The position numbers and the translations under genes are program-made. The notes beneath the pieces were generated by a model that did not search any database, was not told the origin of the DNA, and saw only the letters and a list, made by a program, of their open reading frames with translations. Positions 60-51,020 of a stretch of 58,800 bases of DNA are shown here, piece after piece. Numbering within the stretch: the stretch's first letter is position 1; every line of letters starts with the position of its first letter. The stretch lies in assembly GCA_944386225.1 (NCBI GenBank), contig CALXAH010000021.1:1-58800 (forward strand), written 5' to 3'. The stretch is from an uncultured Gemmiger sp. (GTDB taxonomy: Bacteria; Bacillota; Clostridia; Oscillospirales; Ruminococcaceae).

Positions 60-184
60 TTTTTGGGGTCACTTCACATTTTGGTCTGCACGGGCCTTTG
101 CTCATTTTCTTTCCCAAGGGCCGGAGTATTCCGGCCCTGTGTTCCGGGGGTCTGGGGGATATGTTATATCCCCCAGATTCAGCC
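60..184. repeat. modular palindromic repeat, copy L1 (right half)
   Basis: The right half of the dispersed element is present. The m2 hairpin is at 117-138 (core GGCCGGAGTATTCCGGCC). The m1 hairpin has perfect 12-bp arms, 151-162 with 166-177, and a GTT loop. Bases 73-97 match the right arm of the central hairpin of copy L2. The left m1 and m2 modules are not seen in the first 60 bases, so this copy is truncated or decayed. It overlaps the stop codon of the LacI gene and probably helps terminate it. Confidence 0.7.
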
Positions 185-5797: not shown

Positions 5798-6754
5798 ATG
5801 GCAAACCGGTTTCAGAAGTTTTATCAGATGGTGGCGGAGGCCACCGGCCTGACCCCTGACGGGGAACAGCCCGCGCTGTTCGGCAGCCGGGGCGGATTCG
5901 ACCTTCTGGTGCATCCTCTCAAGCCCTCCCAGCCGGGCATCCTGACCGTGACCGTCTGCGTGCAGCGGGCCGCCGGGCCGCTTACCGCCGGGGAGATCAA
6001 GGAGTTCCGGGCCGGGCAATGGGCCTGCGCCAAGCTGTTCCAGCAGGGGCAGACGGTGAACATGACCATCAAAAACTCGCTGAAGGTAACCAAACACATG
6101 CCGGAGGTGCTGCCCGGGCTGCTGGACGGCTTTGTGGAATTTCTGCGGCAGGCGGGTTTTGAAAATGTCTGCCAGGGCTGCGGCGCGGCGGGCGAAACCC
6201 AAAGCTGTTTTGCCGGCGGACGGCTGCTGCAGCTTTGCCCGGAATGTCTGGCCCGGATGCAGCAGCAGGCGGCCACCGCGCCCGTCAAGCCGGAAAACCC
6301 GGTGGCCGGGGCGGTGGGCGCGCTGATCGGCAGCCTGGCAGGGGCGGTGTGCATCATCCTGTTCAGCCAGCTGGGTTACGTGGCGGCGCTGAGCGGCCTG
6401 GTGATGGGGGTTTGCGCCATCAAGGGCTACGAAATGCTGGGCGGCCGGCTTTCGGGCAAGGGGGCCGCGATCAGCGTGGTGGTCATGCTGCTTATGACCT
6501 ACGCGGCCGACCGGCTGGACTGGGGCATCGTGATTGCCCGGGAACTGGGCGTGGATGTGTTTACCGGATTCCGCGCGGTGGGGGCGCTGCTGGAGATGCA
6601 GGCCATTGACGCCGCCATGTACTGGGGCAACCTGGCGATGCTGTATCTGTTTTTGCTGCTGGGCATGGTGCCCACCGTGCTGGCCGGGCTGCGCGCAAGC
6701 CGCCAGGCCGGCGTGGTGCGTCCGCTGCAGGACAGCGGGCCGAGCGGCGTATAA
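5798..6754 (+). CDS. membrane protein with a zinc-ribbon-like Cys motif, unknown function
   Basis: The start ATG at 5798 follows AAAGAGGG; a TATACT at 5758-5763 is a probable -10 box. The 318-residue protein has a soluble N-terminal half (about 1-120). Next comes a four-cysteine element with CQGCG and LCPEC at about 128-150, which looks like a metal-binding ribbon, and then four or five membrane helices (about 170-300) before a short tail. I do not recognise the family. It stands alone between a lipoprotein gene and a FAD oxidoreductase gene. Confidence 0.7.
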   Translation: MANRFQKFYQMVAEATGLTPDGEQPALFGSRGGFDLLVHPLKPSQPGILTVTVCVQRAAGPLTAGEIKEFRAGQWACAKLFQQGQTVNMTIKNSLKVTKHMPEVLPGLLDGFVEFLRQAGFENVCQGCGAAGETQSCFAGGRLLQLCPECLARMQQQAATAPVKPENPVAGAVGALIGSLAGAVCIILFSQLGYVAALSGLVMGVCAIKGYEMLGGRLSGKGAAISVVVMLLMTYAADRLDWGIVIARELGVDVFTGFRAVGALLEMQAIDAAMYWGNLAMLYLFLLLGMVPTVLAGLRASRQAGVVRPLQDSGPSGV

Positions 6755-6808
6755 ACTTCCAAAAGTCGTACTTATTCCGTAAATTTTTGCCTTTCTGCAC
6801 AAAAACAC

Positions 6809-6837
6809 TTGACTTTCAAGCCTTTGTATGCTATAAA
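6809..6837 (+). promoter_or_regulatory. sigma-A promoter of the FAD-protein gene
   Basis: TTGACT (6809-6814), 17 bases, TATAAA (6832-6837). The predicted start is near 6844, only about ten bases before the terminator-like hairpin at 6853. Confidence 0.75.
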
Positions 6838-6852
6838 CTCCTATGGCTTTGT

Positions 6853-6918
6853 AACCAGCTGCCCGCCGCCGGGCCGCCGCCCGGTTTGGGGCGTTGCTCT
6901 AGGCGGCAGCTGGTTTTT
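6853..6918 (+). terminator. leader terminator or attenuator upstream of the FAD-protein gene
   Basis: The arms AACCAGCTGCC (6853-6863) and GGCAGCTGGTT (6905-6915) are perfectly complementary and run into TTTTTT. Inside is a second hairpin, CCGGGC with GCCCGG and tetraloop CGCC. GCTGC just downstream of the T-run can also pair with GCAGC in the right arm, which would disrupt the terminator. A terminator this close to a strong promoter implies attenuation or a short independent RNA. It could not serve an upstream gene alone, because the promoter lies between. Confidence 0.6.
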
Positions 6919-6962
6919 TGCTGCGTACAAATAGAAAAACAATTTGCAGGAGGATGCACACC

Positions 6963-8357
6963 ATGTATGACGTTGTGATCGTTGGCGCCGGCCCTGCCGG
7001 CATCTTTACCGCGCTGGAACTGCTGCGCAAGGGCAGCCATCACAAGATCCTGCTGCTGGAGAAGGGGCGGCCGGTAGAGAAGCGCCATTGCCCCAAGGCG
7101 GAGACCGGCCGCTGCATGAACTGCAAGCCCTACTGCCACATCACCACCGGGTTTTCGGGCGCGGGCGCGTTTTCGGACGGTAAGCTGAGCCTGAACCACG
7201 AGGTGGGCGGGGATCTGCCCAGCCTGATCGGGGAGTTCTACGCCCAGGAGCTGATCGATTATACCGACGGCATTTATCTGGAGTTCGGCGCGGACGAGCA
7301 TGTGGAAGGCGTGAACCACGGCGAGGAGATCAAGGCCATCCGCAAGCGGGCGATCCAGGCGGGCCTGAAGCTGGTGGACTGCCCGGTGCGGCATCTGGGC
7401 ACCGAAAAGGCCCAGCAGCTGTACTACGATCTGCAGCAGTATCTGCTGGAGCACGGGGTGGAGATCCGGTTCGGCGTGGAGTGCCGCAATCTGGTGCTGA
7501 AGGACGGCGCCTGCACCGGCGTGATCGTGGCCGAGGGCGGCAAGGAGACCGAGATCAGCGGCAACACGGTGGTGGTGGCCACCGGCCGCCGCGGCGCGGA
7601 CTGGCTGGAGAACCTGTGCGCGGAGCATCACATCGACCACAAGCCCGGCACCGTGGACATCGGCGTGCGGGTGGAGTGCCGCAACGAGGTGATGGAGCAG
7701 GTGAACAAGGTGCTCTATGAGAGCAAGCTGATCGGCTATCCGCGGCCGTTCAAGAATAAGGTGCGTACCTTCTGCCAGAATCCCGGCGGGTTTGTGAGCC
7801 AGGAGAACTACGACAACGACCTGGCGGTGGTAAACGGCCACAGCTACAAGGAAAAGAAGAGTGACAACACCAACGTGGCGATCCTGTGCAGCCATAACTT
7901 TACCGAGCCGTTCAACCAGCCCATCGCCTACGCCCAGAAGATCGGCGAGGTGACCAACATGCTGGGCGCGGGGCATATCCTGGTGCAGCGGTTCGGCGAT
8001 ATTCTGGACGGCAAGCGCACCTGGCAGAAGGAGCTGGCGTTCAGCAACCTGCGGCCCACCCTGAAGGACGCGGTGGCCGGTGACATCACCGCCGCCATGC
8101 CCTACCGGGCCATGACCAACATCATCGGGTTTATCCAGATGGTGGATCAGGTGGTGCCGGGTTTTGCCAGCACCGAGACCCTGCTGTACAGCCCGGAACT
8201 GAAGTTCTATTCCAACCGGGTGAACATGGACGAGGAACTGCGTACCAGCATCCGGAACCTGTACTGCCTGGGCGATTCTTCCGGCTGGACCCGTGGCCTG
8301 ATGATGGCCAGCGTCATGGGCGTGCTCATGGCCCGCAAGATCATGGGCGTGCGGTAA
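6963..8357 (+). CDS. FAD-dependent oxidoreductase, COG2509 family
   Basis: The start ATG at 6963 has AGGAGG at a good distance; the ATG at 6954 directly abuts that site and is less likely. The 464-residue protein opens with a dinucleotide-binding fold, GAGPAG at residues 8-13. At about 40-75 it carries the family cysteine cluster (HCPKAETGRCMNCKPYC) followed by GAGAFSDGKL. The C-terminus has GDSSGWTRGLMMASVMG, the FAD-binding end motif. Members are uncharacterised dehydrogenases conserved in Firmicutes; substrate and partner are unknown. Expression probably depends on the leader hairpin. The repeat element L2 starts directly after the stop. Confidence 0.88.
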   Translation: MYDVVIVGAGPAGIFTALELLRKGSHHKILLLEKGRPVEKRHCPKAETGRCMNCKPYCHITTGFSGAGAFSDGKLSLNHEVGGDLPSLIGEFYAQELIDYTDGIYLEFGADEHVEGVNHGEEIKAIRKRAIQAGLKLVDCPVRHLGTEKAQQLYYDLQQYLLEHGVEIRFGVECRNLVLKDGACTGVIVAEGGKETEISGNTVVVATGRRGADWLENLCAEHHIDHKPGTVDIGVRVECRNEVMEQVNKVLYESKLIGYPRPFKNKVRTFCQNPGGFVSQENYDNDLAVVNGHSYKEKKSDNTNVAILCSHNFTEPFNQPIAYAQKIGEVTNMLGAGHILVQRFGDILDGKRTWQKELAFSNLRPTLKDAVAGDITAAMPYRAMTNIIGFIQMVDQVVPGFASTETLLYSPELKFYSNRVNMDEELRTSIRNLYCLGDSSGWTRGLMMASVMGVLMARKIMGVR

Positions 8358-8358
8358 T

Positions 8359-8566
8359 TGGCGAATATGGGGGGATAGAACCTATCCCCCCATACCCCCC
8401 AGAAATCATGACCAAATATCTTTGGCCCTGGGGATTTTATACAAAGCAAGGCCCGCGCGGACATTTTTGGTCTGCGCGGGCCTTATCCGTTTTCTTTTCC
8501 CCAGGGCCGGAGTATTCCGGCCCGATTTCCGGGGTCTGGGGGGACGTTGTCCCCCCAGATTGGCCC
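8359..8566. repeat. modular palindromic repeat, copy L2 (complete)
   Basis: Order: m1 (ATGGGGGGATAG with its complement, 8367-8378 and 8382-8393), degenerate m2 (8412-8425), central hairpin with 15-bp arms (8448-8462 and 8470-8484), m2 inverted (8504-8523) and m1 inverted (8535-8559). The outer modules are mutual inverses, so the unit is a nested palindrome of about 200 bp. It begins two bases after the stop codon of the FAD-protein gene, and the central hairpin can act as a terminator. Confidence 0.85.
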
Positions 8567-8575
8567 TTTCTCCGT

Positions 8576-8604
8576 TTGCACCGCCGCAAAAAACGTGTTA
8601 TACT
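8576..8604 (+). promoter_or_regulatory. sigma-A promoter of the GNAT gene
   Basis: TTGCAC (8576-8581), 17 bases, TATACT (8599-8604), about 90 bases before the ATG at 8694. Confidence 0.65.
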
Positions 8605-8693
8605 GATGCGTGTTTGAACAAACGAACAAGGCGGGGCGCCGGGCCTTTGGCCTGTGCGGGAGATGAGCCCCGCGGGAGGAGAGAGGACATCAC

Positions 8694-9176
8694 ATGACCA
8701 TTCGCAACGCAACCGCCGCCGACGCGGCGGCGCTGGCCGCCGTGGAAGCGGCCTGTTTCCCGGCCGCGGAGGCGGCCACCGAACCGCAGATCGCCGCCCG
8801 GCTGGCGGTATTCCCGGACAAGTTCTTCCTTGCGGAGGAAGAAGGCCGGGTGATCGGCTTTATCGACGGTGCGGTAATCGACCGTCCCACCCTGACCGAC
8901 GCGATGTTTGAAGATCCGTCGCTGCATCGGCCGCTGGGGGCCTGGCAGGCGGTGTACGGTCTGAACACCCTGCCCGACTACCGCCGTCAGGGCGTGGCCG
9001 CCGCGCTGATGAACGCGCTGCTGGACGCCGCCCGCGCCGAGGGCCGCCGGGGCGCGGCGCTGACCTGCAAACAGGCGCTGATCCACTACTACGAAAAATT
9101 CGGGTACCGGCTGCTGGGTCTGTCCGCGTCCCAGCACGGCGGCGCGGTCTGGTACGACATGCTGCTGGAATTCTGA
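8694..9176 (+). CDS. GNAT-family N-acetyltransferase
   Basis: The 160-residue protein has the GNAT fold. Acetyl-CoA motif A reads LNTLPDYRRQGVAAALM (about 97-113) with the RRQGVA pyrophosphate loop, and YYEKFGYR near the C-terminus is motif B. The start ATG follows GGGAGGAGAGAGG. GNAT enzymes transfer acetyl from acetyl-CoA to amines; the acceptor here cannot be told, although the overall shape recalls arylalkylamine-type members. It has its own promoter and lies 28 bases upstream of aroE-aroK, so the two are probably co-transcribed. Confidence 0.9.
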   Translation: MTIRNATAADAAALAAVEAACFPAAEAATEPQIAARLAVFPDKFFLAEEEGRVIGFIDGAVIDRPTLTDAMFEDPSLHRPLGAWQAVYGLNTLPDYRRQGVAAALMNALLDAARAEGRRGAALTCKQALIHYYEKFGYRLLGLSASQHGGAVWYDMLLEF

Positions 9177-9204
9177 TCCCCGCATACCCGCAAAGGAGGA
9201 CGCC

Positions 9205-10467
9205 ATGGACTACGGACTGATCGGCAAAAAACTGGGCCACAGCTTTTCCGCCCCCATCCATGAGGAGCTGGGCGGCTACCGCTACCAGCTGCGGGAACTT
9301 CCCGACGAAACCGCGCTGGCAGAGTTTCTGCGCAAGCGGGAGTTCAAGGCCATCAACGTGACCATCCCCTACAAGCAGGCGGTGATGCCGGCCTGCGCCT
9401 ATCTGGACCCGGCGGCGAAAGCCATCGGCGCGGTGAACACCATCGTGAACCGGAACGGCGTGCTCTCCGGCTACAACACCGACTATGCCGGGGCCCGCCG
9501 CGCCATGCGCCGGGGCGGGGTGGAGCTGGCGGGCCGGGTGGTGCTGATCCTGGGCACCGGCGGCACCCGCCGCACCTTTTCCGCCATCGCCCGGGACGAG
9601 GGCGCGCGGGAGATCCTGGTGGCCGGGCGCAGCGGCGGCGACGGGGTGCTGACCTACGACGAAGCCGCCCGCCGCGCCGACGTGCAGGTGGTGCTGAACG
9701 CCAGCCCCGCCGGGATGTGGCCCCACAACGGGGAATGCCTGGTGGATCTGTCGGTCTGGCCCGCGCTGGAATCGGTATTTGACGCGGTGTACAACCCGCT
9801 CCAGACCCGGCTGCTCTGGCAGGCCGAACAGCGGGGTCTGCCCGCGGTGAACGGTCTGGCCATGCTGGTGGGGCAGGCAAAATACGCCTCGGAGCATTTC
9901 ACCGGCCGCACCATTCCGGACGAGGAGATCGACCGGGTACACCGCACCCTGCTGGGCCGTCTGGCCAACCTGGTGCTGGTGGGGATGCCCGGCTGCGGCA
10001 AGACCCGCATCGGCCGTCTGGCGGCGCAGGCGCTGGGCCGGGATTTTGTGGATATGGACGCGGAGATTGAAAAAGCCGCCGGGATGTCCATTCCGGATAT
10101 CTTTTCCCGGGAAGGGGAACAGGGGTTCCGGGACCGGGAAACCCAGGTGGCCAAATCCCTGGGCGCCCGCACCGGGCTGGTGATCGCCACCGGCGGCGGC
10201 GCGGTGCTGCGGCAGGAAAACCTGCGGGCTTTGCGCCAGAACGGCGTGATCGTCTACATGCAGCGGTCGCTGGATCAGCTGGCGGTGGGGGGCAACCGGC
10301 CCCTGAGCTCCAGCCGGGAGGCGCTGGAAAAGATGCTCACCGCCCGCGCGCCTGTCTACGAGGCGGCGGCGCATCGGGTGGTGTTCAACACCGGCGGCCC
10401 GCCCAGCCTGGCCCGCCGGGACGTGCTGGCGGCATTCCGCCAGGCACTGGACGCCGGGGTGTTATAA
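9205..10467 (+). CDS. aroEK: shikimate dehydrogenase-shikimate kinase fusion
   Basis: The 420-residue protein joins two enzymes of the shikimate pathway. Residues about 1-252 are AroE: SFSAPIHE substrate site, catalytic Lys in NVTIPYK, GAVNTIV, the Asp of GYNTDYAGA, an NADP loop GTGGTRRTF and the C-terminal GQAKYASEHF. Residues about 255-420 are AroK: P-loop GMPGCGKT, DMDAEIE, GFRDRE, ATGGGAVL and the LID Arg in NRPLSS. All key residues of both halves are present, so it should reduce 3-dehydroshikimate and phosphorylate the product. The start ATG follows AAAGGAGGACGCC. A strong terminator follows. Confidence 0.93.
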   Translation: MDYGLIGKKLGHSFSAPIHEELGGYRYQLRELPDETALAEFLRKREFKAINVTIPYKQAVMPACAYLDPAAKAIGAVNTIVNRNGVLSGYNTDYAGARRAMRRGGVELAGRVVLILGTGGTRRTFSAIARDEGAREILVAGRSGGDGVLTYDEAARRADVQVVLNASPAGMWPHNGECLVDLSVWPALESVFDAVYNPLQTRLLWQAEQRGLPAVNGLAMLVGQAKYASEHFTGRTIPDEEIDRVHRTLLGRLANLVLVGMPGCGKTRIGRLAAQALGRDFVDMDAEIEKAAGMSIPDIFSREGEQGFRDRETQVAKSLGARTGLVIATGGGAVLRQENLRALRQNGVIVYMQRSLDQLAVGGNRPLSSSREALEKMLTARAPVYEAAAHRVVFNTGGPPSLARRDVLAAFRQALDAGVL

Positions 10468-10477
10468 CGAAACGGAA

Positions 10478-10527
10478 CAAGGCCCGCGTGGGGACGGATA
10501 CCGTCCCTGCGCGGGCCTTGCTTTTTT
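10478..10527. terminator. intrinsic terminator between convergent genes
   Basis: CAAGGCCCGCG and GGGACGG pair with CCGTCCC and GCGCGGGCCTTG around ATA, followed by TTTTTT. The arm sequence AAGGCCCGCG is the same as in the central hairpin of repeats L2 and L7. Confidence 0.9.
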
Positions 10528-10528
10528 G

Positions 10529-11374
10529 TTATTCCTGAGGATCGGCCACCTTGGGGGCCCGTTTGCCGCCCCGCAGGTAGGTGCACTCGCTGCGCTTGTA
10601 CCATTTGGGGGCCAGGCTGCTGCCCTCGGCCCGGACCTTGAGCATACCGGAAACCGGGTTGGCTTCCAGCACCACGCCCTCGCCGTCCGGGGTGCGGACG
10701 ATGCTGCCGTTCATGGGGGTGATGCTGTTCAGGTACTCGTAGCTTTTCTGCTCATAGGCCAGGCAGCACATCAGACGGCCGCAGCTGCCGCTGATCTTGG
10801 TGGGATTCAGGCTCAGGCCCTGTTCCTTGGCCATCTTGATGCTGACCGGCTGGAAGTCCCGCAGAAAACGGCTGCAGCAGAAGGGCTGGCCGCAGATGCC
10901 GATACCACCCAGCATCTTGCTCTCGTCCCGCACGCCGATCTGGCGCAGCTCGATCCGGGTATGGAACACCCCCGCCAGATCCTTGACCAGATCCCGGAAA
11001 TCCACCCGCCCGTCGGCGGTGAAGTAGAACAGGATCTTGCTGCGGTCCAGGTTGTATTCCGCGTCCACCAGCTTCATTTCCAGGCCGTGCCTGGCAATGC
11101 GTTCCTGGCAGATGGTGAAGGCTTTTTTCTCGTCCGCCCGGTTCTGTTTCATGGCCCGCACGTCCAGGCTGTCCGCCGCGCGCAGCACCTTTTTCAGTTC
11201 CCGGGGGATCTGGCTGTCCGGCAGTTCCGCCGGGCCCGGCACCACTTCGCCGCATTCCGCGCCGCGGGCCGTTTCCACGATCACATAGTCGCCCGGTTTG
11301 CAGTCCAGGTCTACCGGGTCAAAATAGTAGGCTTTTCCGGCCGGTTTGAACCGTACCGATACGATCTTCTTCAT
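10529..11374 (-). CDS. ricT: RicT (YaaT), PSP1-domain protein
   Basis: The start ATG at 11374 is preceded by AAGGAATAGT. The 281-residue protein has the PSP1 C-terminal domain. It carries the cysteine clusters of RicT, CGQPFCC and CGRLMCCLAYE, near the middle of the chain, with GECGEVV near the N-terminus. In Bacillus, RicT with RicA and RicF forms an Fe-S-containing complex that assists RNase Y in mRNA processing. The neighbours holB and darA reproduce the Bacillus yaaQ-holB-yaaT order. Repeat L3 separates it from holB. Confidence 0.92.
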   Translation of the reverse strand: MKKIVSVRFKPAGKAYYFDPVDLDCKPGDYVIVETARGAECGEVVPGPAELPDSQIPRELKKVLRAADSLDVRAMKQNRADEKKAFTICQERIARHGLEMKLVDAEYNLDRSKILFYFTADGRVDFRDLVKDLAGVFHTRIELRQIGVRDESKMLGGIGICGQPFCCSRFLRDFQPVSIKMAKEQGLSLNPTKISGSCGRLMCCLAYEQKSYEYLNSITPMNGSIVRTPDGEGVVLEANPVSGMLKVRAEGSSLAPKWYKRSECTYLRGGKRAPKVADPQE

Positions 11375-11474
11375 ACTATTCCTTTTTCTCTGCCGCAAGC
11401 ATTGGGTGTCACGTCCCGGCCCGCGCGGCAGTGGGTTGGGCCGGGGTTTGATAAGGTTAGAATGCTATTATATA

Positions 11475-11573
11475 GCCAATATGGGGGTCAAAGACCCCCA
11501 TGCCCCCCTTTGTCGGGCCGAATACTCGGCCCTTGGGGGAAATCATATTTAGCCTTTTGCATACGCAAAAGGC
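11475..11573. repeat. modular palindromic repeat, copy L3 (left half)
   Basis: m1 (ATGGGGGTC, 11481-11489, with 11493-11501), m2 (GGGCCGAATACTCGGCCC, 11515-11532) and a central hairpin GCCTTTTGC-ATAC-GCAAAAGGC (11552-11573). The right m2 and m1 modules are absent. It lies between holB and ricT, both on the minus strand. Confidence 0.75.
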
Positions 11574-11608
11574 CACACGTATAATACGCTTTGTATAATT
11601 AGTAAAAA

Positions 11609-12520
11609 TTATACGCGACACAGGCGCAGGGCCAGGGCGGTGAGGGTCAGGCGGGGGTTGGCGTTGGATTCCAGGGCGGTGAGGGCGCGGCCTGCCTGCC
11701 GGGCCGCGTGGGCCGCCCGGGCGGGGGGCAGGGGATCTTCCGGGGCGGGATCCCGCATCCAGGCGCTGCACAGGCTGCGCAGCAGCTCGATCAGCCGGGC
11801 GGCCCGGGATTTATCCTTTTCCACCCCTGCCAGCACCCGCATACAGCCGTACCGGTCCCGGGCGGCGGCCGCCGCGGCCAGGTCCCGGGCTTCCCGCAGC
11901 AGGGCCTCCCCGTCGGGGCTTTGCAGCAGCGCCAGCGCCGCGCCCGCCCGGCCGCCGAACGCCCGGGCCAGATCCCGGGCATGGGGCTCGTCGCAGGCGG
12001 GATGCTGCGCCCGCAGCAGGGCGGCGCAGTCCGCCTGGGGCAGGGGAGCCACCGTGTACAGGCGGCACCGGCTGCGGATGGTGGGCAACACGGAACCCGC
12101 CCCGGGCGCCGTCAGGATAAACAGCACCCCGGGCGGGGGTTCCTCCAGGATCTTCAGCAGCGCGTTGGCGCTGGCCGGGTTCATTTTATGGGCGCCGTAA
12201 ACGATCTGCACCCGCCCGGCGGCGGACAGGCTGGTTTCATACAGCGCGGCACGGGCGGCGCGGATCTGCTCCACCTTGATGATGCCGCCGCTGCCCGAAC
12301 CCCGCAGCCCGGCGCATTCCGGGCTTTCGCCCCGCAGCACCGCTTCGGCGGCGGGGCCGCCGTCCGGATACAGGTAATCGGCCGCCAGGCACCGGGCGGC
12401 AAAGCCGGTGCCGCAGCCCGCTTCGCCGCACAGCAGTACGCTGTGGCCCAGCCGGCCGGCGGCCAGCGCCTCGGCCAGGGCCTGGCGGGTGAGCTCATTG
12501 CCGGCCAGACGGGCCAGCAT
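11609..12520 (-). CDS. holB: DNA polymerase III delta-prime subunit
   Basis: The product is 303 residues from the ATG at 12520; a GTG three bases earlier is also possible. It is an AAA+ clamp-loader subunit with a degenerate P-loop GEAGCGTG, a Walker B-region followed by the helix KMNPASANALLKILEEP, and the SRC-type motif PTIRSRCRLY. It helps load DnaN on primed DNA. The usual zinc-module cysteine pattern between P-loop and Walker B is not complete. The start overlaps the darA stop, so the two are translationally coupled. Confidence 0.88.
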   Translation of the reverse strand: MLARLAGNELTRQALAEALAAGRLGHSVLLCGEAGCGTGFAARCLAADYLYPDGGPAAEAVLRGESPECAGLRGSGSGGIIKVEQIRAARAALYETSLSAAGRVQIVYGAHKMNPASANALLKILEEPPPGVLFILTAPGAGSVLPTIRSRCRLYTVAPLPQADCAALLRAQHPACDEPHARDLARAFGGRAGAALALLQSPDGEALLREARDLAAAAAARDRYGCMRVLAGVEKDKSRAARLIELLRSLCSAWMRDPAPEDPLPPARAAHAARQAGRALTALESNANPRLTLTALALRLCRV

Positions 12521-12843
12521 CACAGTTTTTCAAACCGCTCCACGTTGGTGACAAAGACGGTGGCGCCGCCCACGGTGACCTCCAGCGGGTAGGCGGTGGC
12601 CACGCCCAGGCCGTAGCTGGCGGTGCTGGGCACTACCTCGGTGCGCTGCTTGCAGCAGCGGGCGATCACGGCGATGCAGCTGTCCACCTTTTCGTCATCG
12701 GTGCCGATGAGCAGGGTCATGTTGCCGGCCATCAGGAAGCCGCCGGTGGTGGACAGGCGGGTAACACTGAACCCGGCTTTGATAAGCTCGGTACACACGG
12801 CGCGGGAATCCTCTTTGTTGACGATAGCGGTGATCATTTTCAT
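12520..12843 (-). CDS. darA: cyclic-di-AMP receptor DarA/PstA-like
   Basis: The start ATG at 12843 follows GGGAGG. The 107-residue protein matches the DUF970 PII-like family: MKMITAIVNKEDSRAVCTEL at the N-terminus, the loop RLSTTGGFLMAGNMTLLIGT and the GGATVFV end. In Bacillus, Staphylococcus and Listeria these trimers bind c-di-AMP. The downstream target is not settled. It overlaps holB, the same neighbour as in Bacillus yaaQ. Confidence 0.9.
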   Translation of the reverse strand: MKMITAIVNKEDSRAVCTELIKAGFSVTRLSTTGGFLMAGNMTLLIGTDDEKVDSCIAVIARCCKQRTEVVPSTASYGLGVATAYPLEVTVGGATVFVTNVERFEKL

Positions 12844-12932
12844 AACGGCAAACCTCCCTGTACCGCCCGCTTGCGGGCGGTGGATAAACACGCCGGGCAT
12901 TGCCCTGCGCTTTTTTCTATTGTATCACACTG

Positions 12933-13595
12933 TCAGCGATTCTTCCACTGGTTTTGCCAATCCCGGCGGCGTTTGTAGTTGCGGTAGCTGTTGATGCCGT
13001 CGTGCCACAGATCCTGGCCGAAGAACAGCAAAAAACCGCTGAGCGCCAGCACCAGGCTGAGCTTGTTCAGCAGGCCGGGCATGGTGAGGATCTGCAGCAG
13101 GTACAGCGCGCCGGAGAACAGCCCGATCCACTTGACCTTGACGGGGATGACGAAGAACAGCAGCAGCTGCTGGTCCGGATACAGGCAGGCGAAGGCGAAG
13201 AACAGGGAATAGTAGATGCCCATGTTGTCCGACCAGCCGGTGAGCAGGCAGGCCAGCCAGGCGCCCACGATGCCCGCCGCCACATAGACGGTGAACCGGA
13301 AATTGCCCCAGGCACGTTCCAGCGCCATGCCGATCCAGTATTCGCAGTACAGATATAAAAGGAAGAACAGCGGGTTGGACGCGCCCGACGGCATGAACAC
13401 AAAGGTGATCAGGCGCCAGACCTGCCCGTGCAGCACGCCGCTGCGGGTCAGGGCGAGCTGGTGCAGCAGGCTGCTCATGCCCAGGTTGGCGGCCACGTAC
13501 AGCAGCAGCTGCCCCGCGATCAGGATCATCATCAGGTTGGGAATACCGCCGCGGCGGCCGTATTTGTATTCGAGTTTCTGCAGCCAGGATCGCAT
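12933..13595 (-). CDS. rhomboid-like membrane protein without a catalytic serine motif
   Basis: The 220-residue protein from the ATG at 13595 (AGAGAGG upstream) has six hydrophobic segments. It has the layout of rhomboids: a TM1-loop with WRLITFVFMP, a helix ending WIGMALERAWG, then YVAAGIVGAW, and a LLLFFVIPVKVKW segment like the rhomboid LFFIPVPAK motif. The GxSG motif and the catalytic His are not present at the expected places, so it is probably a rhomboid pseudoprotease. An internal hydrophilic N-terminus (KLEYKYGRRG) is conserved-looking. It may be in one transcript with darA, holB and ricT. Confidence 0.75.
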   Translation of the reverse strand: MRSWLQKLEYKYGRRGGIPNLMMILIAGQLLLYVAANLGMSSLLHQLALTRSGVLHGQVWRLITFVFMPSGASNPLFFLLYLYCEYWIGMALERAWGNFRFTVYVAAGIVGAWLACLLTGWSDNMGIYYSLFFAFACLYPDQQLLLFFVIPVKVKWIGLFSGALYLLQILTMPGLLNKLSLVLALSGFLLFFGQDLWHDGINSYRNYKRRRDWQNQWKNR

Positions 13596-13753
13596 AAGCC
13601 GGAGGCCTCTCTTTCTGTTACTAAACGGTGGTTTGTAAAATTGTTGCCCGCGCGTTTTGGCCGCAATCGGCGCGCCGGCATGGGGATATTGTACCATTTT
13701 CCCCAGTCGCATTCAACAAAAAGTTATCGACCGGCAGTTTTCGTGGAATCTCG

Positions 13754-13899
13754 TGTGGAAAACCCCACCCCAAAATATAGGGTTCTCAACACTTTCCACC
13801 GAGTTTTCCACCGAAATCCGGGTTTTGGGGAATATACAACCTGTAATCGTGGAAAAATCGGCATAATTTTCAACGGTCTGTTGAAAACGCTGTGGAAAA
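13754..13899. promoter_or_regulatory. cluster of DnaA-box-like 9-mers
   Basis: TGTGGAAAA at 13754-13762 and 13891-13899, TTTTCCACC at 13804-13812, CGTGGAAAA at 13848-13856 and a TTTCCACC at 13793-13800 sit in a gap with no gene. An inverted TTTTCAAC pair (13867-13874 and 13880-13887) lies between them, a word also found in oriC. Function as a DnaA titration or regulatory cluster is inferred. Confidence 0.55.
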
Positions 13900-13957
13900 C
13901 CCGGACATGGAAATTTGCATCCTTTTTGTGAATAAAGTGTGACGGGAAAGAACGGCT

Positions 13958-14248
13958 GATCTGGGGGGACAACGTCCCCCCAGACCCCTGAGATCATGGC
14001 CGAATATCTTCGGCCATTGGGAAATAATACCAAACAAGGCCCACGTGAACTTTTTTGCTTCACGCAGGCCTTGTTTTCTATACTATCCCTGGGGCCAGAG
14101 TATTCTGGCCCCAGGGGTCTGGGGGCCCGGGTCCGCGAAGCGGCTGGATCTCCGGTGGAGATCCAGACCGGCAGGGCGGTCGGCACAGCCGAGCGGGCGC
14201 ATCGTTGTTGCGCCCGCAGCCCTTGGTTCTATCCCCCCATATTGGCCC
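13958..14248. repeat. modular palindromic repeat, copy L4 with m4 insertion
   Basis: m1 (13960-13984), m2 (13996-14017), central hairpin AAGGCC...GGCCTT (14036-14072) and inverted m2 (GGGGCCAGAG with its complement, 14091-14112). The inverted m1 is split: TCTGGGGG (14118-14125) and CCCCCCATATTGGCCC (14233-14248) flank a module m4. That module holds GCGAAGCGGC, a hairpin TGGATCTCC/GGAGATCCA and a hairpin GCGGGCGCA/TGCGCCCGC. The element ends just before the stop codon of the amidase gene. Confidence 0.82.
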
Positions 14249-14255
14249 ATAGCCC

Positions 14256-16418
14256 TTACCCCGGCATGCTGGCCAGGACGGCCTGGGCGATGGCGCCGCC
14301 TTCGGCCCAGAGGGTGGTTTCGTCGGCGCAGGTTTCGTACTCGGCGGGCACGGTCATGAACCCGGTTTCCAGCAATACCGCCGGGCAGACCGCGCTGCGG
14401 GTCACATAATAATAATCCTGGAAACTGCCGCGCAGCGCCCGGCCGGTGACCCCGGTCATATAAGCGGTCAGGTTTTCCGCCAGCACGGCGCCCGAATCAA
14501 AGAAATAATAGGCCTCGGTACCGCCGGTCTGGTTCAGGTCGCTGGTCAGAGCGGCGCTGTTATGGTGCACCGCAATGAAGAAATCCGGCTTTTGCTGCCG
14601 CAGCATCTCCACCCGTTCGCCCAGGCTCAGGGCGGTATCGTCCTGCCGGGTAAAGACCACCGTGGCCCCCAGCTGCTCCAGCCGGGCGGCGGCGGTCTGG
14701 GCCAGCGCCAGGTTCAGATCCTTTTCCAGCGGCGCGCTCATGCCCGCCGCGCCCATGGCGCCGTTATCGCTGCCGCCATGGCCCGGATCCAGCAATACCG
14801 TCACCCCTGCCAGCGGCGCGTCGTCGGTTCCCCGGGCGGGGGCGTGCTGCAGATACACCTGTATCCCGTCGGCGGTATAATCCACCGTGTAGCCCCACAG
14901 CGGTTCGGCGGCGTCAAACTCCACCGTCAGGGCAAATCCCTGCCACTCGTCCCAGTCCGATACCGACACCGCTTTCGCAAACCCGCAGCTGCCGGCCACA
15001 TCCCCCTCCAGCGAGGCGGACAGAAACCGCAGGGTCAGGCCGGTTTCGGTCTGCTCCGCGTACCAGATCGGCGAGCCGCTGCCCGGCAGGGTCAGCACCA
15101 CGTCGCCGCTCTCCTGCTGGGCGGCGGTCAGGCCGGTGAAGGCCGCGGCATCCGCGTCCGCCACCAGCTCGCAGTCCTTGGCCAGCACGTAATCCCCGGT
15201 ATCCAGCTGATAGGCATAGGTATACTTGTTGCTGCGCACAAACCGCACGCTGTCGGCCACCCGGGCCATGCCGCCCGCGTAGGCGGTGGTCTGGATACTG
15301 CCGCTTACCGCCTTATCCGACAGCACGCTGGCCAGTGCTTCGGTGATCCGCACATATTCGCCCGTTTTGGCGGCGCGGCTGCCGTCGGAGGTAGGCTTGG
15401 CGCTGGTCCAGCTGGAACTGCGCCGGGTGATGGTCAGGGTGACCTCCCGGCCGCCCTGGCTGGCGGTGTATGTATTCTCGCCCGGTTCCGGCTCCACCAG
15501 CAGGCCCCAGACCCCCTGGGTGCCGTAGCGGGTGACCTCCCGGCCGTTGACGGTCAGGGTCTCGGCCTGGTCGCTGGTGCCCATCAGGAACACCGTATCG
15601 GTGTAGACCACCGCGTCCTGCTCGGGATAGCTGAACGCCAGTTCGCCGGACACCCCGCTGCTCAGCAGGGTCACCGGGCCGGCCTCGTCATCCCCGGCAC
15701 AGAAGGCCAGGGTCACGGCCATGCGGCCTTTTTCCTCCGGCAGCTGGCTCCAGCTGCCCAGCACCAGCCCCGCGCCGGTCTGCTGCCGGCGGGCCGCCGC
15801 CAGCACCGACGGGCTGTCGTCCCGGCGCAGCAGGGAAGTGCCGCCCTCGGCGGTATACACATCCACCGCGCCGGGGTTTTCCGGGTCGGCGGGGGTCAGG
15901 TAATAGACCAGCAGGTCATAAGTCTCGGCCAGGTCGGCGGCCCAGGCGGGCAGCTCGCTGCCGGGGGCCAGCGCCGCGCCGGTATCGTCCACCGCCAGCA
16001 GGCCCGCGCCCATGCCCCGGTCGGCGGCCTGCTTGATCAGCTCGGCCACCGGGTCCAGTTTGCGGAAAAAGCCGTCCGGCATGGCGGCGGCGGGGGCGGC
16101 GGTCAGTTCCTTGGTGTCAAACAGCGCCCCCTGCCCGGACAGGCCGCTGAACAAGACCGTATCGGCCCCGGCGGCGGACGCGGTATCCAGCGCGTCGGTG
16201 ACCGCCTGCCGCACGGCGGACGCATCGGACAGGCTGTTCAGGCTGTCGGCCCAGGCGTCGTCCAGCACCAGCGCGGTGGGGCGGGTCAGGGTCAGGGCGT
16301 TGCGGGACGAAGGCCGCAGCAGGCTGATTCCCAGGATCAGCAGGGCGGCCAAAGCCGCCAGGCAAAGAAAGCAGGCCAGCGCGGCGGGCAGCGCCGAGCG
16401 ACGGGTTCGGGTTTTCAT
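14256..16418 (-). CDS. N-acetylmuramoyl-L-alanine amidase, multidomain
   Basis: The 720-residue protein starts with an Arg-rich cytoplasmic tail and one membrane helix (about 11-34), so it is membrane-anchored and faces outward. Residues about 40-230 resemble a glycosyl-hydrolase-like domain (TALVLDDAWADSLN, then LAVDDTG), and a central beta-rich region follows. The C-terminal about 175 residues are an Amidase_3 domain with zinc ligands in LLDPGHGG, an EKDLN glutamate, IAVHHNSA and the catalytic Glu of LLETGFM. It should cleave the MurNAc-L-Ala bond of peptidoglycan. It lies alone, convergent to repeat L4. Confidence 0.9.
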   Translation of the reverse strand: MKTRTRRSALPAALACFLCLAALAALLILGISLLRPSSRNALTLTRPTALVLDDAWADSLNSLSDASAVRQAVTDALDTASAAGADTVLFSGLSGQGALFDTKELTAAPAAAMPDGFFRKLDPVAELIKQAADRGMGAGLLAVDDTGAALAPGSELPAWAADLAETYDLLVYYLTPADPENPGAVDVYTAEGGTSLLRRDDSPSVLAAARRQQTGAGLVLGSWSQLPEEKGRMAVTLAFCAGDDEAGPVTLLSSGVSGELAFSYPEQDAVVYTDTVFLMGTSDQAETLTVNGREVTRYGTQGVWGLLVEPEPGENTYTASQGGREVTLTITRRSSSWTSAKPTSDGSRAAKTGEYVRITEALASVLSDKAVSGSIQTTAYAGGMARVADSVRFVRSNKYTYAYQLDTGDYVLAKDCELVADADAAAFTGLTAAQQESGDVVLTLPGSGSPIWYAEQTETGLTLRFLSASLEGDVAGSCGFAKAVSVSDWDEWQGFALTVEFDAAEPLWGYTVDYTADGIQVYLQHAPARGTDDAPLAGVTVLLDPGHGGSDNGAMGAAGMSAPLEKDLNLALAQTAAARLEQLGATVVFTRQDDTALSLGERVEMLRQQKPDFFIAVHHNSAALTSDLNQTGGTEAYYFFDSGAVLAENLTAYMTGVTGRALRGSFQDYYYVTRSAVCPAVLLETGFMTVPAEYETCADETTLWAEGGAIAQAVLASMPG

Positions 16419-16661
16419 GAAACAGGTCCTCCTTGGGAAATCTCAGGTTCAGTATACCATAAATCTACGCCGGCAGACACCGGAACATTTCTCCACCGGG
16501 CGTTTGTATGCTATAATGGACCGCAAGCGGCCCATTATCTAAATTGCCCTTTTTCTCGCCCCTTGCGGGGCAACCGAAAAAGATGGCGAATTATACCATT
16601 CGCTGGCGCTCATGCTATAATAGTAAAGTATATGATTTTGTTTACCACAGGAGGCAGACCT

Positions 16662-17486
16662 ATGAAGATCCCCGCCCAAGGTTTTACCCACGCCGGCAAG
16701 TTCCACGCCGACGATGTTTTTTCCACCGCGCTGCTGCGGATCGTGCGCCCGGATATCCAGATCACCCGGGGCTTTGAGGTTCCGGAAAATTTTGACGGGA
16801 TTGTATACGATATCGGCGGCGGGATGTTTGACCATCATTTCGAGCCCCGGCCCATCCGGCCCAACGGGGTGCCCTACGCGGCGTTCGGGCTGCTGTGGCA
16901 GCTGCTGGGAACACAGCTGGTGGGGGCGAACCAGGCCCGGCTGATGGACGAGAATTTCATTCAGCCGCTGGATCTGAACGACAACACCGGCGAAAAAGAC
17001 AGCCTGGCCGACGCCATCGGGGCGTTCAATCCCCGCTGGGACGAGCCGGACCGGGGCGACGAGCCCTTCTGGGAAGCGGTGGCCGTGGCGCAGAATATTC
17101 TGGAAAAGCGGATCGGGGAAGCCCAGGCGGTGAACCGGGCGGACGATCTGGTACGGGACGCCTACGACCGGATGCAGGACGGCATCGTGATCCTGCCCTG
17201 CTACGCGCCCTGGAAAAACGCGCTGTACCGCACCGACGCGCTGTTTGTGGTATATCCCAGCCAGCGGGGCGGCTGGGCAGCCCAGGCGGTGACCGACCGG
17301 CGCACCAAAAAGAGCAAGATCCCGTTCCCGGCGGCCTGGGCCGGGCAGAACGGGGAGGACCTGGCCCAGCGCAGCGGCATTCCGGGGCTGCGGTTCTGCC
17401 ATGCCAGCCGGTTTATGGTGACCGGCGCGGAAAAGGCGGATGTGATCGAGGCCTGCCGCCGGGCGATGCGGGCGGCCAGACGATGA
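16662..17486 (+). CDS. MYG1-family protein (UPF0160)
   Basis: The start ATG at 16662 follows CAGGAGGCAGACCT; the frame is open far upstream but only as a shadow of the amidase gene. The 274-residue protein has HAGKFHADDVF at residues about 10-20, VYDIGGGMFDHH, and later PCYAPWKNAL, the signature of MYG1 proteins. The family is related to DHH phosphoesterases, and the eukaryotic member is reported as a 3-prime RNA exonuclease. The bacterial role is unclear. A TATAAT at 16615-16620 is a probable -10 box. It overlaps the next gene by ATGA. Confidence 0.88.
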   Translation: MKIPAQGFTHAGKFHADDVFSTALLRIVRPDIQITRGFEVPENFDGIVYDIGGGMFDHHFEPRPIRPNGVPYAAFGLLWQLLGTQLVGANQARLMDENFIQPLDLNDNTGEKDSLADAIGAFNPRWDEPDRGDEPFWEAVAVAQNILEKRIGEAQAVNRADDLVRDAYDRMQDGIVILPCYAPWKNALYRTDALFVVYPSQRGGWAAQAVTDRRTKKSKIPFPAAWAGQNGEDLAQRSGIPGLRFCHASRFMVTGAEKADVIEACRRAMRAARR

Positions 17487-18169
17487 ATCCGGCGCGGGAA
17501 ATTCTGGACAACGGCACGGTGGTATGCACCGCGCCGCCCCACCGGATCGGTACCGACGGGCTGCTGCTGGCCCGGTTCTGCGGGCCGCGGCGGGCCGAGC
17601 GGGCGGCGGATCTGGGCAGCGGGTGCGGGATCATTGCGCTGGCCTGGCACGACGCCGGGCACCGGGGGCCCTGCGCGGCGGTGGAGCTGAACGGCGCGGC
17701 GCACAGCTTGCTGGCGCAGGCGCTGGCCCAGCAGCCCGAAGCGGCGGCGCATATCCGGGCGGTGCTGGGGGATCTGCGGCAGTTTGGCGCCGGGGAGGCC
17801 CCGGCCTTTGATCTGGTGGCCTGCAACCCGCCCTATTTCACGGCGGGACGGCCCAGCCCCGACCCACAGCGGGCGGCGGCCCGGCACGAGGAAACGGCGG
17901 CCTTCACCGACGTGGCGGACTGCGCCGGGCGGCTGCTGCGGGACGGGGGAAAGTTTGCGTTCTGCCTGCCGCCGGACCGGCTGGCCCAGGCCTTTGCGGC
18001 CCTGGCGGCGGCCCGGCTGGAGCCGAAACGGCTGCAGTTTGTGAAGAAGGAGCCGGCGCGCGCCCCCTGGCTGTTTTTGTGCGAAGCCCAGAAAAACCGC
18101 CGCCCCGGCCTGCGGGTGGAGCCCGACCTGTGTCTGCAGGCAGGGATACCGTACGGGACGGGGAGATAA
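17483..18169 (+). CDS. tRNA1(Val) (adenine37-N6)-methyltransferase-like
   Basis: The ATG at 17483 overlaps the MYG1 stop. The 228-residue Rossmann methyltransferase has motif I DLGSGCGI (about 41-48) and the N6-adenine/N5-glutamine catalytic motif NPPYF (about 115-119). The N-terminal GTDGLLLARF segment is typical of TrmN6/YabB. Such enzymes methylate A37 of tRNA-Val using S-adenosylmethionine. Substrate assignment is by family; another N6-adenine target is possible. Repeat L5 begins directly after the stop. Confidence 0.85.
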   Translation: MNPAREILDNGTVVCTAPPHRIGTDGLLLARFCGPRRAERAADLGSGCGIIALAWHDAGHRGPCAAVELNGAAHSLLAQALAQQPEAAAHIRAVLGDLRQFGAGEAPAFDLVACNPPYFTAGRPSPDPQRAAARHEETAAFTDVADCAGRLLRDGGKFAFCLPPDRLAQAFAALAAARLEPKRLQFVKKEPARAPWLFLCEAQKNRRPGLRVEPDLCLQAGIPYGTGR

Positions 18170-18258
18170 TTGCCAATATGGGGGGATAGAACCTATCCCC
18201 CCGGCGCTGCGGGCGCAACCACAATGCGCCCGCAGCCCCCGTTGTCCCCCCAGATTGG
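18170..18258. repeat. modular palindromic repeat, copy L5 (compound)
   Basis: m1 left (18178-18202, ATGGGGGGATAG and CTATCCCCCC) is followed by a hairpin CTGCGGGCGCA (18207-18217) with 18225-18235, and by a right half-arm TCCCCCCAGATTGGCA (18244-18259). The outer arms (GCCAATATGGGGGGA and its near-complement) can also pair across the insert, so the m4-type hairpin again sits within an m1 loop. The remaining gap up to 18460 holds an AAAGCACCCTG hairpin and a short AT-rich stretch with ATGCGTGTAAAATATA, a word that recurs before gyrB. Confidence 0.75.
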
Positions 18259-18271
18259 CAATACAAAAGGA

Positions 18272-18495: not shown

Positions 18496-18506
18496 CCGTT
18501 TTTTGT

Positions 18507-23349: not shown

Positions 23350-23693
23350 TTTCGGGGGAGATAACATCTCCCCCGAGCCCCCTGGAAATCAAGGGCCGAA
23401 TCCTCGGCCCTTGGGGGAATTTTATTTTTTCCGTACCTTTTATGATACGGCAGAATGGGGGGAAAAGCAACCGGGGAAACAAAACAAGCCGATGCGTAAT
23501 CCTTTATACGCACCGGCTTGTTTCATATAAATTCCCTATGGCCGGAGTACTCCGGCCATGGTTTCCGGGGTCTGGGGGCCGGGTCCGCGAAGCGGCCAAG
23601 GCCACAGTGTGGCCTTGGACCGGCAGGGCGGCCGGCGCAGCCGGGCGGGCGCATCGTTGACGCGCCCGCAGCACCGGGTCCCCCAGATTGGCA
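23350..23693. repeat. modular palindromic repeat, copy L6 with m4 insertion
   Basis: m1 (TCGGGGGAGAT, 23352-23362, with 23366-23376), m2 (AAGGGCCGAA with its complement, 23391-23412), a central hairpin AAACAAGCCG...CGGCTTGTTT (23482-23523) and inverted m2 (23538-23559). The inverted m1 is split: TCTGGGGG (about 23571) and CCCCCAGATTGGC (23681-23693) flank m4. That module contains GCGAAGCGGC, a hairpin CCAAGGCCAC/GTGGCCTTGG (23596-23618) and a GCGGGCGC/GCGCCCGC hairpin. It ends five bases before the mgtE stop codon. Confidence 0.82.
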
Positions 23694-27107: not shown

Positions 27108-27310
27108 AGCCAATCTGGGGGGACAACGTCCCCCCAGACCCCGGAAATCATGGCCGAATGTCTTCGGCCATAGGGAAAGTAAATACAAAGGCCCGTGCTG
27201 ACCATAACGGTTAGCGCGGGCCTTGCTTTTTCAATATCCCCATGGGCGGAGTATTCCGCCCATGATTTCCAGGGGGTATGGGGGAGATGTTATCTCCCCC
27301 ATATCAGCCC
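27108..27310. repeat. modular palindromic repeat, copy L7 (complete)
   Basis: m1 (TCTGGGGGGAC, 27114-27124, with 27128-27138), m2 (ATGGCCGAAT with its complement, 27150-27171), central hairpin AAGGCCCG...CGGGCCTT (27188-27224), inverted m2 (ATGGGCGGAG with its complement, 27242-27263) and inverted m1 (TATGGGGGAGAT, 27277-27288, with 27292-27303). It abuts the jag stop codon at 27311. A separate CCCGGGAA/TTGCTCCCGGG hairpin lies at about 27076-27096. Confidence 0.88.
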
Positions 27311-30650: not shown

Positions 30651-30815
30651 AGCCAATCTGGGGGAGACAACGGGGCTGCGGGGGCCACAACGAAGCCCCC
30701 GCCCGGCTGCCGCCGGCCGCCCTGCCGGTCCAAGGCCGCACCGTGGCCTTGGCCGCTTCGCGGACCCGGGCCCCCAGCCCCCCCTTTTGTCGGGCCGGAT
30801 ATCCCCGGCCCTCGG
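30651..30815. repeat. modular palindromic repeat, copy L8 with reversed m4
   Basis: An m1 split by a reversed m4 module: CTGGGGG at 30658, then GGGGGC/GCCCCC, CCAAGGCC/GGCCTTGG (about 30730-30752) and GCTTCGCGGACC, then CCCCCAG near 30771. m2 follows (GGGCCGGAT...CGGCCC, 30792-30811). No right half is seen. Nothing else is recognised between 30816 and the dnaA promoter at 31042. Confidence 0.72.
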
Positions 30816-31041
30816 AAAATGAAGAATACAGGCTCTTGAACGGCTTCTTTTGCAAACTCGCCCGGAAAGGCCCGCCCATTCGCCCGGGTTCGCCCATGGG
30901 AACCGGTGGAAAATCGGGGTACAATACAAGCGGAGAGCTTTCCGGTACGATACGGCGGGGATTTTTCCGCCGCAGCACACCCGCGCCGCCCCGGGTGCTA
31001 TAAATACCTTTTAATAAATTATTTTAGCGGCCGGTTTTTTA

Positions 31042-40925: not shown

Positions 40926-41240
40926 GCAGGCTGTGCGCCGCGACCGCTCCCGGCTGTTCCGGGTGTGGGATAAACGGCCTTCGGAAACTACGGGCGCAAC
41001 AAGTATGCACCCGTTCCGCTTCGCGGACCGTTTTGCCGGTCCAAGGCTCCACTGGAGCCTTGGTTGCCTTGCAAACCCGGGACCCCGGCTTTGCCGGGCC
41101 CCCACACGCCTGCACACCCGTCCGCTGGGTAAAGGGGCGTCTGCGGATTCATCGCCCCTCCCAGGAGGGCCGATTCATCTCGCAGCCGCAGCCCCCATAC
41201 CCCCCGGAAATAGTGGGACGGAATACTCCGTCCCACGGGG
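40926..41240. repeat. modular repeat, copy L10 (inverted relative of the dnaA-dnaN unit)
   Basis: Directly after gyrA, 40964-40983 and 41139-41197 are inverted matches to parts of the 171-bp tandem unit (GTGGGATAAA...GGCCTTCGG and GCGGATTCATC...GGCCGATTCATCTCGCAG). Between them is a reversed m4 module (GCTTCGCGGACC, CCAAGGCTCC/GGAGCCTTGG at 41041-41063). It ends with an m2 hairpin (GTGGGACGGA with its complement, 41213-41236). Nothing else is recognised to 41420. Confidence 0.75.
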
Positions 41241-41420
41241 ATAGAAAAATATAGCACAAAGCAGCGCGCCCCCCGCCGGGTTTCCGGTGGGGGGCGTGTT
41301 TTAGGTTTACGGGATGGATGGCGCGGGCAGGGGCGTTTTTCCACCTATTGGCAAAAAGCAGAGGACTTGGAAAACGGGGGCGGGCAAAAACGGCCCGGCG
41401 CCAAAACCCGGCGGGGGACA

Positions 41421-50823: not shown

Positions 50824-50953
50824 CGCTCGGTGCAGCTTGCGATAGCAGCACATTCTTTCCTTACCGAAAGGGGTGAGGGTGTGGGAGAGGACCATCAGGG
50901 CCCTCTCCCACTTGCAATATTTTTTCGTATTTTCTGTGCGCAGCGCAGAAAAT

Positions 50954-51020
50954 GCGGGGAGAGATAACATCTCTCCCCGTGCCCCTCTGGAAACAGCGGG
51001 ACGGAATTCTCCGTCCCGCA
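50954..51020. repeat. modular palindromic repeat, copy L11 (m1 + m2)
   Basis: m1 CGGGGAGAGAT (50955-50965) with 50969-50979, then m2 GCGGGACGGA with its complement (50996-51019). The central and right modules are missing. A hairpin GTGGGAGAGG/CCTCTCCCAC (50881-50911) precedes it after the noc-like gene, probably the terminator. Confidence 0.75.

Follow-up and report, generated by a model that had tools for sequence, protein, structure and literature searches.

The stretch of DNA analysed here (the window, 58,800 nt) is contig C21 of a 3.38-Mb draft Gemmiger genome, referred to below as the own genome or G000, and one of its proteins has an orthologue of 98% identity in Gemmiger sp. An120. The gap at 8359-8566 holds a nested palindrome, and the question that it raises is what such an element is and does. 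The original prediction had placed parts of one such design in eleven gene gaps and had offered composite transcription terminators or a non-autonomous mobile unit as explanations. A dispersed family of mirror-image hairpin elements in Gemmiger gene gaps is real. The reading that we favor, with a probability of roughly 0.6, is that this family decorates intrinsic terminators: each element would be a REP-like, genus-restricted and invertible wrapper of a bidirectional Rho-independent terminator, supplying extra 3' hairpins and flipping by recombination between its arms.

As read from sequence and predicted folds, the anatomy of the element is clear. The order m1 hairpin, m2 hairpin, central hairpin, inverted m2 and inverted m1 was found as predicted, and the 8359-8566 copy folded as RNA with a z of -10.0 and the 27108-27310 copy folded as DNA with a z of -12.7; in the folds of both, the linkers also pair across the element. 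These two copies are indeed complete, and those at 13958-14248 and 23350-23693 are complete save for an insert. The basic unit is a half-unit of about 75 nt with two hairpins, m1 outward and m2 inner, which lies on one or both sides of a terminator-like hairpin. The m1 hairpin can be written GGGG(G)-inner stem-AAC-inner stem'-CCCC(C); among 158 nearly full-length halves, 111 have the loop AAC and 20 the loop CA. The m2 hairpin has a stem of at least 7 bp and a loop that is usually 4 nt long, commonly ATAC. The central hairpin is mostly of the AAGGCCCGCGC...GCGCGGGCCTT or the AAGGCCGGTGCGT...ACGCACCGGCCTT type, and both ends of the element carry terminal inverted repeats (GCYRAT...m1). Among the 133 clusters in the pieces examined of four genomes of the genus (G000 to G003), 77 have two halves, always plus and then minus, and 56 are solitary, with no other order found; in three short two-half clusters the halves overlap and a centre is lacking. 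Parts of the family were present in 10 of the 11 listed gaps (Table 1), and the gap at 32498-32895 proved to hold a different palindromic repeat. A half-element profile placed halves in nine of the eleven, at about 104-179, 8361-8564, 11475-11546, 13955-14125, 23354-23578, 27109-27308, 30771-30827, 41192-41249 and 50952-51017.

Table 1. Elements, hairpins and the E2 query stretch in the window (G001 and G002 are related genomes; a dot marks a feature given without a strand)
Feature	Position	Strand	Context or basis
Complete element	8361..8564	.	After stop codon TAA 8355-8357 of a FAD-dependent protein gene; following gene co-directional
m1 hairpin, loop AAC	8366..8394	+	Sequence and fold
m2 hairpin, among the few imperfect stems	8410..8427	+	Sequence
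Central terminator-like hairpin C	8448..8484	+	Central-hairpin analysis and terminator scan
Inverted m2	8504..8523	-	Sequence
Inverted m1, AAC loop on minus strand	8535..8559	-	Sequence and fold
Complete element	27109..27308	.	2 nt from stop codon of a minus-strand Jag/KhpB-like gene; interior inverted versus G001
Complete element, E2 insert in right m1	13955..14246	.	Whole-element score gives inversion in G001, interior score ambiguous; G002 gap has a single m1
Element with E2 in right m1, internal conserved non-repeat stretch, different central hairpin	23354..23692	.	
Right half of element split between contigs C12 (79250) and C21	104..179	-	
Solitary half, m1 towards start codon of minus-strand gene	11475..11546	+	
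Remnant: m1, GC-rich hairpin, half an m1 (by eye)	18172..18258	.	G002 gap has a two-half element
m1 with E2 insert and degenerate m2	30652..30829	+	Missing in G002 gap; gap called divergent
Truncated half adjoining E2- and E3-like sequence	41192..41249	+	
Degenerate solitary half	50952..51017	+	
E2 query stretch: about 130-bp multi-hairpin second repeat inside m1 hairpins; last approximately 24 bases are m1	14118..14248	.	

Several other features were seen in the same DNA. The assembly is broken at one element (G000:C12:79250 / window 100-183), leaving its halves on two contigs. In the own genome the second repeat, E2, was matched 27 times, with a few of the matches limited to its m1 end; it also lies at 23571-23692, 30652-30777 and elsewhere, and by eye many copies sit at the AAC loop or past it. 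It occurs in the same four genus genomes as the element, and a search of 27 genomes from outside the genus gave no match. A third palindromic repeat forms two tandem copies, 91% alike, at window 32498-32938, where they follow the stop codon of dnaA immediately in the gap between dnaA and dnaN, and in the pieces examined it has related copies at C12:69367, C22:12326 and window 41075-41186. Outside the repeat, a stretch around ATACGGCAGAAT (window 23330-23710) is common to the gaps of G000, G002 and G003 and, by eye, G001, and it may be a promoter or a small RNA. Window 9205-10467 encodes one protein with shikimate dehydrogenase and shikimate kinase domains.

The genome and its relatives were searched with a covariance model of the half-unit built from 42 halves, and further copies were present. 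The own genome contained 86 half-units at E <= 0.001, which make about 52 loci by a hand merge in which halves within 350 bp were joined and the copy split between C12 and C21 was counted once. At E <= 0.01, the counts of halves were 91 in G000, 97 in G001, 66 in G002 (an assembly that is 75% complete) and 52 in G003. The end motif GSYNRATNTGGGGG occurred 52 times versus 6 times for the backwards pattern; given this excess and the 86 halves at E <= 0.001, a chance origin was rejected. By DNA similarity, one copy matched all four sampled Gemmiger-genus genomes, the own one included, and none of 37 genomes outside the genus. A model search of 148 genomes of the taxonomic family with stricter filters matched G000, G001 and G003 plus G065, the only one of 145 genomes outside the genus to be matched, with two weak half matches. 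These comparisons demonstrate that the family is restricted to the genus among the genomes sampled. A looser pattern that demands no paired inner stem, TGGGGGN{4,14}CCCCCA, was found 59, 71, 55 and 36 times in the four genus genomes versus 2, 2, 10 and 8 times for a backward control, and it exceeded the control elsewhere too (34 versus 5 in G007, 22 versus 6 in G047). Loose G-run hairpins thus exceed their control in other genera, so the restriction applies to the half-unit and not to all G/C hairpins. When a central AAC was added to the loose pattern, the counts in six other genomes fell under the control in five and were 7 versus 5 in the sixth. G065 has a single AAC-looped m1. By eye, its contig C138 (L199 about 310-480) has a stop codon, a G/C hairpin, a second hairpin, an m2-like hairpin and a terminator, alike in order and different in sequence.

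Neighboring genes were taken from a codon-usage gene finder written for this analysis, and their limits are approximate. Of the 77 two-half clusters, 70 could be classified, the exceptions being six for which no end was found and one that lacked a neighbor; 43 lie in convergent gaps, 27 in co-directional gaps and none in divergent gaps, orthologs being included among these 70 so that they are not independent. In G000 alone the corresponding figures were 16, 12 and 0, compared with 21, 69 and 31 for all background gaps of more than 60 bp (five pieces, elements included), which gives a Fisher P of 4e-5 for the convergent excess and a chance of 2.5e-4 for the lack of divergent gaps. The prediction that most copies lie a few bases from stop codons held well for two-half copies, in which 94 of 113 stop-side ends (39 of 44 in G000) are at -1 to 10 nt from a stop codon, with a median of 3, and none of 27 start-side ends is within 20 nt of a start. 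It held less well for solitary halves. Among the 54 that were classified, m1 faces a stop codon in 38, with separations that range from direct adjacency to almost 300 nt, and a start codon in 16, two of which are mutual orthologs in a gap called divergent; some solitary halves have no good hairpin on their inner side. These gene-finder calls demonstrate a consistent position of the elements within gaps.

The central hairpin was compared with terminators that stand alone. At least 5 T were counted in the 10 nt past the outermost G-C pair in 57 and 56 of 70 distinct centres by direction, and in 53 both ways, where T makes up 18% of the window; bare convergent gaps of 21-129 bp (n = 24) had such a T-rich tail in 18 and 18 by direction and in 16 both ways. 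The centre therefore joins a GC stem to T-rich tails on both strands at gene ends, the features of a bidirectional intrinsic terminator. Convergent gaps without a half (n = 31, from larger pieces of G000 to G002) had a median length of 67 bp, and 24 of them are <= 123 bp; by eye most of these 24 consist of a single bare terminator that fills the space between the two stop codons, several of them with the AAGGCCCGCGC stem type, and one of the seven longer gaps holds the m1 remnant at window 18170. Gaps with a half (n = 29) had a median length of 213 bp. Near 27235 on G001 contig C6, a terminator is separated from the stop codon by a half; in G000 that terminator stands in the gap with no half beside it, and in G002 both are missing. 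The terminator is thus separable from the half-unit, because bare terminators occur in half-free gaps and a shared terminator is found without the half in G000. The idea of a composite terminator stands in that the centre is T-rich on both strands, like bare convergent terminators, and in that the gaps occupied are of the classes where transcripts end. It was less well supported by a simple terminator scan of 6000-25900, which caught one of three centres, that of the 8359 copy, on one strand only and listed neither the 13958 nor the 23350 centre. From these comparisons, the unit would be more aptly regarded as a half-unit set next to a terminator.

The m1 and m2 stems are almost entirely Watson-Crick paired. 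For 158 of 210 halves, the 52 more degenerate ones being omitted, 11 of 1755 m1 pairs and 16 of 1438 m2 pairs are non-Watson-Crick (99.4% and 98.9% Watson-Crick, respectively). The stems of the 70 distinct centres have 16% non-Watson-Crick pairs (GT 78, AC 71 and other 75 of 1398), and the inner 12 pairs have 113 of 840 (13.5%); the two hairpin finders used equal pair scores, with slightly unlike stopping rules and loop ranges. Similar numbers of GT and AC pairs in the centre would be expected if both strands are read. Inner stems are perfect in 145 of 158 m1 and 151 of 158 m2 hairpins, and these perfect stems comprise 13 distinct sequences for m1 and 12 for m2, compared with a mean of about 1 and maxima of 5 and 6 in 1000 shuffles of arms among types. 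Among 64 orthologous stems of G000 and G001, 46 are identical and 18 differ, and 14 of these 18 change on both arms of each altered pair, as if an allele had been replaced; two of the 14 are unflipped m1 hairpins of C12:8971 that were wrongly paired in the comparison, and the corrected figure is 12 of 16. Taken together, these alignments demonstrate covariation in the m1 and m2 stems. The near-absence of G.T pairs argues against selection as RNA alone, but it could also be explained by young age or copying, because the halves were picked by similarity to the model and alleles are shared by descent.

Elements are crowded near a likely replication origin. Window 29831-50823 has an origin-type gene cluster, with an RNase P protein gene at 29831, dnaA at 31148-32497, dnaN at 33554, a gyrA-type gene at 38376 and parB at 49999, and synteny with G001 and G002 connects contig C12 to C21. 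The 138 kb so joined to dnaA (C12 plus C21, a pair chosen after the hits were seen) hold 18 of the 52 loci versus 2.1 expected, and within the window this density is confined to the side left of dnaA. Contigs C20, C22 and C39 are also rich, with 13 loci, and are not placed relative to the origin. Such crowding would suit a role at the level of DNA, in which the hairpins, as cruciforms or as single strands, would be recognised by, for instance, gyrase, nucleoid proteins or a recombinase, at places where convergent genes make supercoiling strongest; the almost purely Watson-Crick m1 and m2 stems, the conserved AAC loop of 111 of 158 halves and the z of -12.7 for the DNA fold point the same way. 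We nevertheless consider this role unlikely. The inner stem is not fixed in sequence, which would leave shape and loop as the features recognised, and the concentration near dnaA is also explained by local spread.

The two arms of an element are less alike than expected. In 45 elements with two nearly full halves, a subset of the 77 two-half elements in which orthologs are not independent, left and right m1 are identical in none (5.7 expected) and left and right m2 in two (9.2 expected), with a P of about 0.002. By genome, P was 0.11-0.18 in G000, which is weak, and 0.03-0.16 in G001. A few stems in this comparison were misparsed, and by eye none hides an identical pair. Whole-arm similarity was 33.3 versus 39.1 for shuffled partners, with all 500 of 500 shuffles higher; pairing between arms is therefore not a conserved feature, although single copies still fold with paired linkers. 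That the whole element is one long hairpin was rejected on the same comparison. Elements whose arms are identical over a long stretch may have dropped out during assembly, but an identical m1 pair would be only a short match. The rarity of identical arms is evident in these assemblies. Some REP families form dimers exclusively of unlike units, as described in part of PMC3733652.

A comparison of G000 with G001, which are approximately 95% identical, demonstrated that elements are inverted in place between assemblies. From 47 G000 clusters, 37 were located in G001 pieces and 24 have two halves in both; a whole-element score called 9 of these 24 inverted and 15 the same, and a strict interior score called 6 inverted, 13 the same and 5 ambiguous. 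The element at C22:30703-30903 is inverted at 98.0% identity over 198 bp. In-place opposite-strand matches numbered 31, of which 20 were at elements, including all 16 of at least 100 bp, and the other 11 were 27-58 bp. The cassette matches its own reverse complement at about 75-80%, so opposite-strand matches alone are no proof, and a comparison of forward with reverse was used instead. With G002 as a third genome, C12:17947 and C12:8971 share the G000 orientation, and by parsimony it was G001 that turned. An error of the draft assemblies is possible, but the polarised and diverged cases are not easily explained in this way. Nine inversions among 24 elements could suggest a dedicated site-specific invertase for which the elements are phase-variation switches, and we regard this as very improbable. 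In the three cases read in detail no single fixed crossover site of the inverton kind was found: the interior alone is turned at C12:8971 and nearly everything at C12:17947 and window 13958, and these differing breakpoints favor recombination between arms over one fixed site. The cassette is also nearly symmetric, so a flip should change little. Gut-bacterial invertons are likewise invertible segments, and the element differs from those described in the part of PMC11892184 considered in that no fixed crossover site was seen. The small hairpin inversions of chloroplast DNA also flip in place between inverted repeats and recur in related species, but there short loops flip within one stem, whereas here the flipping unit is a multi-hairpin cassette of about 200 bp (PMC6824564, in part).

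The prediction of a non-autonomous mobile unit is supported in part: the family is dispersed and genus-restricted, and next to a terminator common to two genomes the half may occur in one and be missing from the other. Comparison of orthologous gaps revealed this variation of the half, but most gaps compared were occupied across species, those with an element in one species mostly holding at least a half in the other. The few absent/present pairs of gaps are imperfect and showed no clear target duplication. Searched for Y1_Tnp (RAYT, PF01797), the own genome gave no matches, and the same family was found in 5 of 14 control genomes; no GTAG or CGTC terminal unpaired tag was seen by eye in a 42-sequence alignment. 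A RAYT-mobilised REP or REPIN was rejected on these two grounds. Five extra loci with the end motif had, by eye, no autonomous element with the same ends; one is a degenerate m1-m2-like stretch adjoining a terminator, and the others lack family hairpins. Each of these findings bears on the reading that the family is a selfish repeat, REP-like or MITE-like and without function, with a half-unit that inserts next to terminators as harmless sites, its adjacency to stop codons arising because terminators come soon after stops. The dispersed, genus-restricted copies, the half that comes and goes beside a shared terminator and the nesting of E2 within the first repeat would all fit, and the REPs of other bacteria have a like preference for gaps and distances of <20 bp (PMC3733652, in part). 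We hold a purely selfish repeat to be somewhat improbable, in view of the lack of Y1_Tnp in the own genome and of a gene-bearing element with these ends at the five loci, the absence of clear target duplications and the retention of at least a half in most occupied gaps compared.

Under the favored reading of a wrapped terminator, we infer termination, mRNA effects, DNA-level constraint, the flipping mechanism and the route of spread as follows. The centre C would act as a bidirectional Rho-independent terminator of a kind also used bare in the genus. An outgoing transcript would pass from the stop codon into m1 roughly 8-15 nt later, then m2 and then the terminator, and in convergent gaps the mirror half would serve the other strand likewise. 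The cassette would end transcription from both sides and would leave each mRNA with extra 3' hairpins; these may shield the message or influence ribosomes that have reached the stop codon, effects that are reported for REPs. Local hairpins that are kept perfect while their alleles are exchangeable may reflect templated repair or DNA-level selection, keeping the two arms different may avoid a long perfect palindrome, and the mirror symmetry would allow flipping in place by recombination between arms. Co-directional gaps, which put the second half beyond the terminator, count against a terminator wrapper. It is also possible, though we put it forward only tentatively and think it doubtful, that the family is a distinct invertible terminator cassette, with locally perfect, allele-exchangeable half-units on both sides, unlike arms, in-place flips and a RAYT-independent copying or repair that is most active near the origin.

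The elements are dispersed extragenic hairpins in inverted pairs near 3' ends, and in structure and position they resemble REPs. In the part of PMC3733652 that bears on this, the GTAG and CGTC families of REPs and BIMEs are likewise short hairpins in inverted pairs in convergent or co-directional gaps near 3' ends, with subfamilies that have alternative complementary stems. The element differs from them in its lack of the tag, its two hairpins per half, its halves wrapped around a terminator, its Bacillota host and the absence of Y1_Tnp from the own genome; G.T pairs, which are often observed in those REPs, are almost absent from m1 and m2. An E. coli REP is reported to lie within 15 nt of a stop codon (PMC12306157, in part), and the element hairpin is similarly within about 15 nt. 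The paired uptake-signal terminators of Neisseria and Pasteurellaceae are also dispersed, inverted-pair repeats in tail-to-tail gaps and linked to terminators, but there the uptake-signal repeat itself is the terminator stem, whereas the half-unit flanks the terminator (PMC1852404, in part). Rfam 15 at its gathering score gave no match to the element, its matches in the window being three tRNAs, and an open-access literature search found no description of the element. The predicted lack of a known REP, BOX or ERIC counterpart thus stands for Rfam at the gathering level, but in where they lie and how their stems vary the elements are strongly similar to the REPs of PMC3733652. We would file the family as REP-like by place and form and not as a RAYT-REP; its terminator-centred mirror layout, near-pure Watson-Crick stems, in-place flipping and unlike arms set it apart from known REPs.

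These elements provide a natural experiment in which perfect hairpins of free sequence stand beside a terminator stem that tolerates mismatches, and the upkeep of palindromes at the DNA level is thereby testable apart from selection at the RNA level. The frequent in-place inversion of cassettes at gene ends could be misread as new insertions in comparative studies. The family also extends REP-like biology to a Bacillota genus in which the usual transposase family was not found in the sampled member, the own genome.
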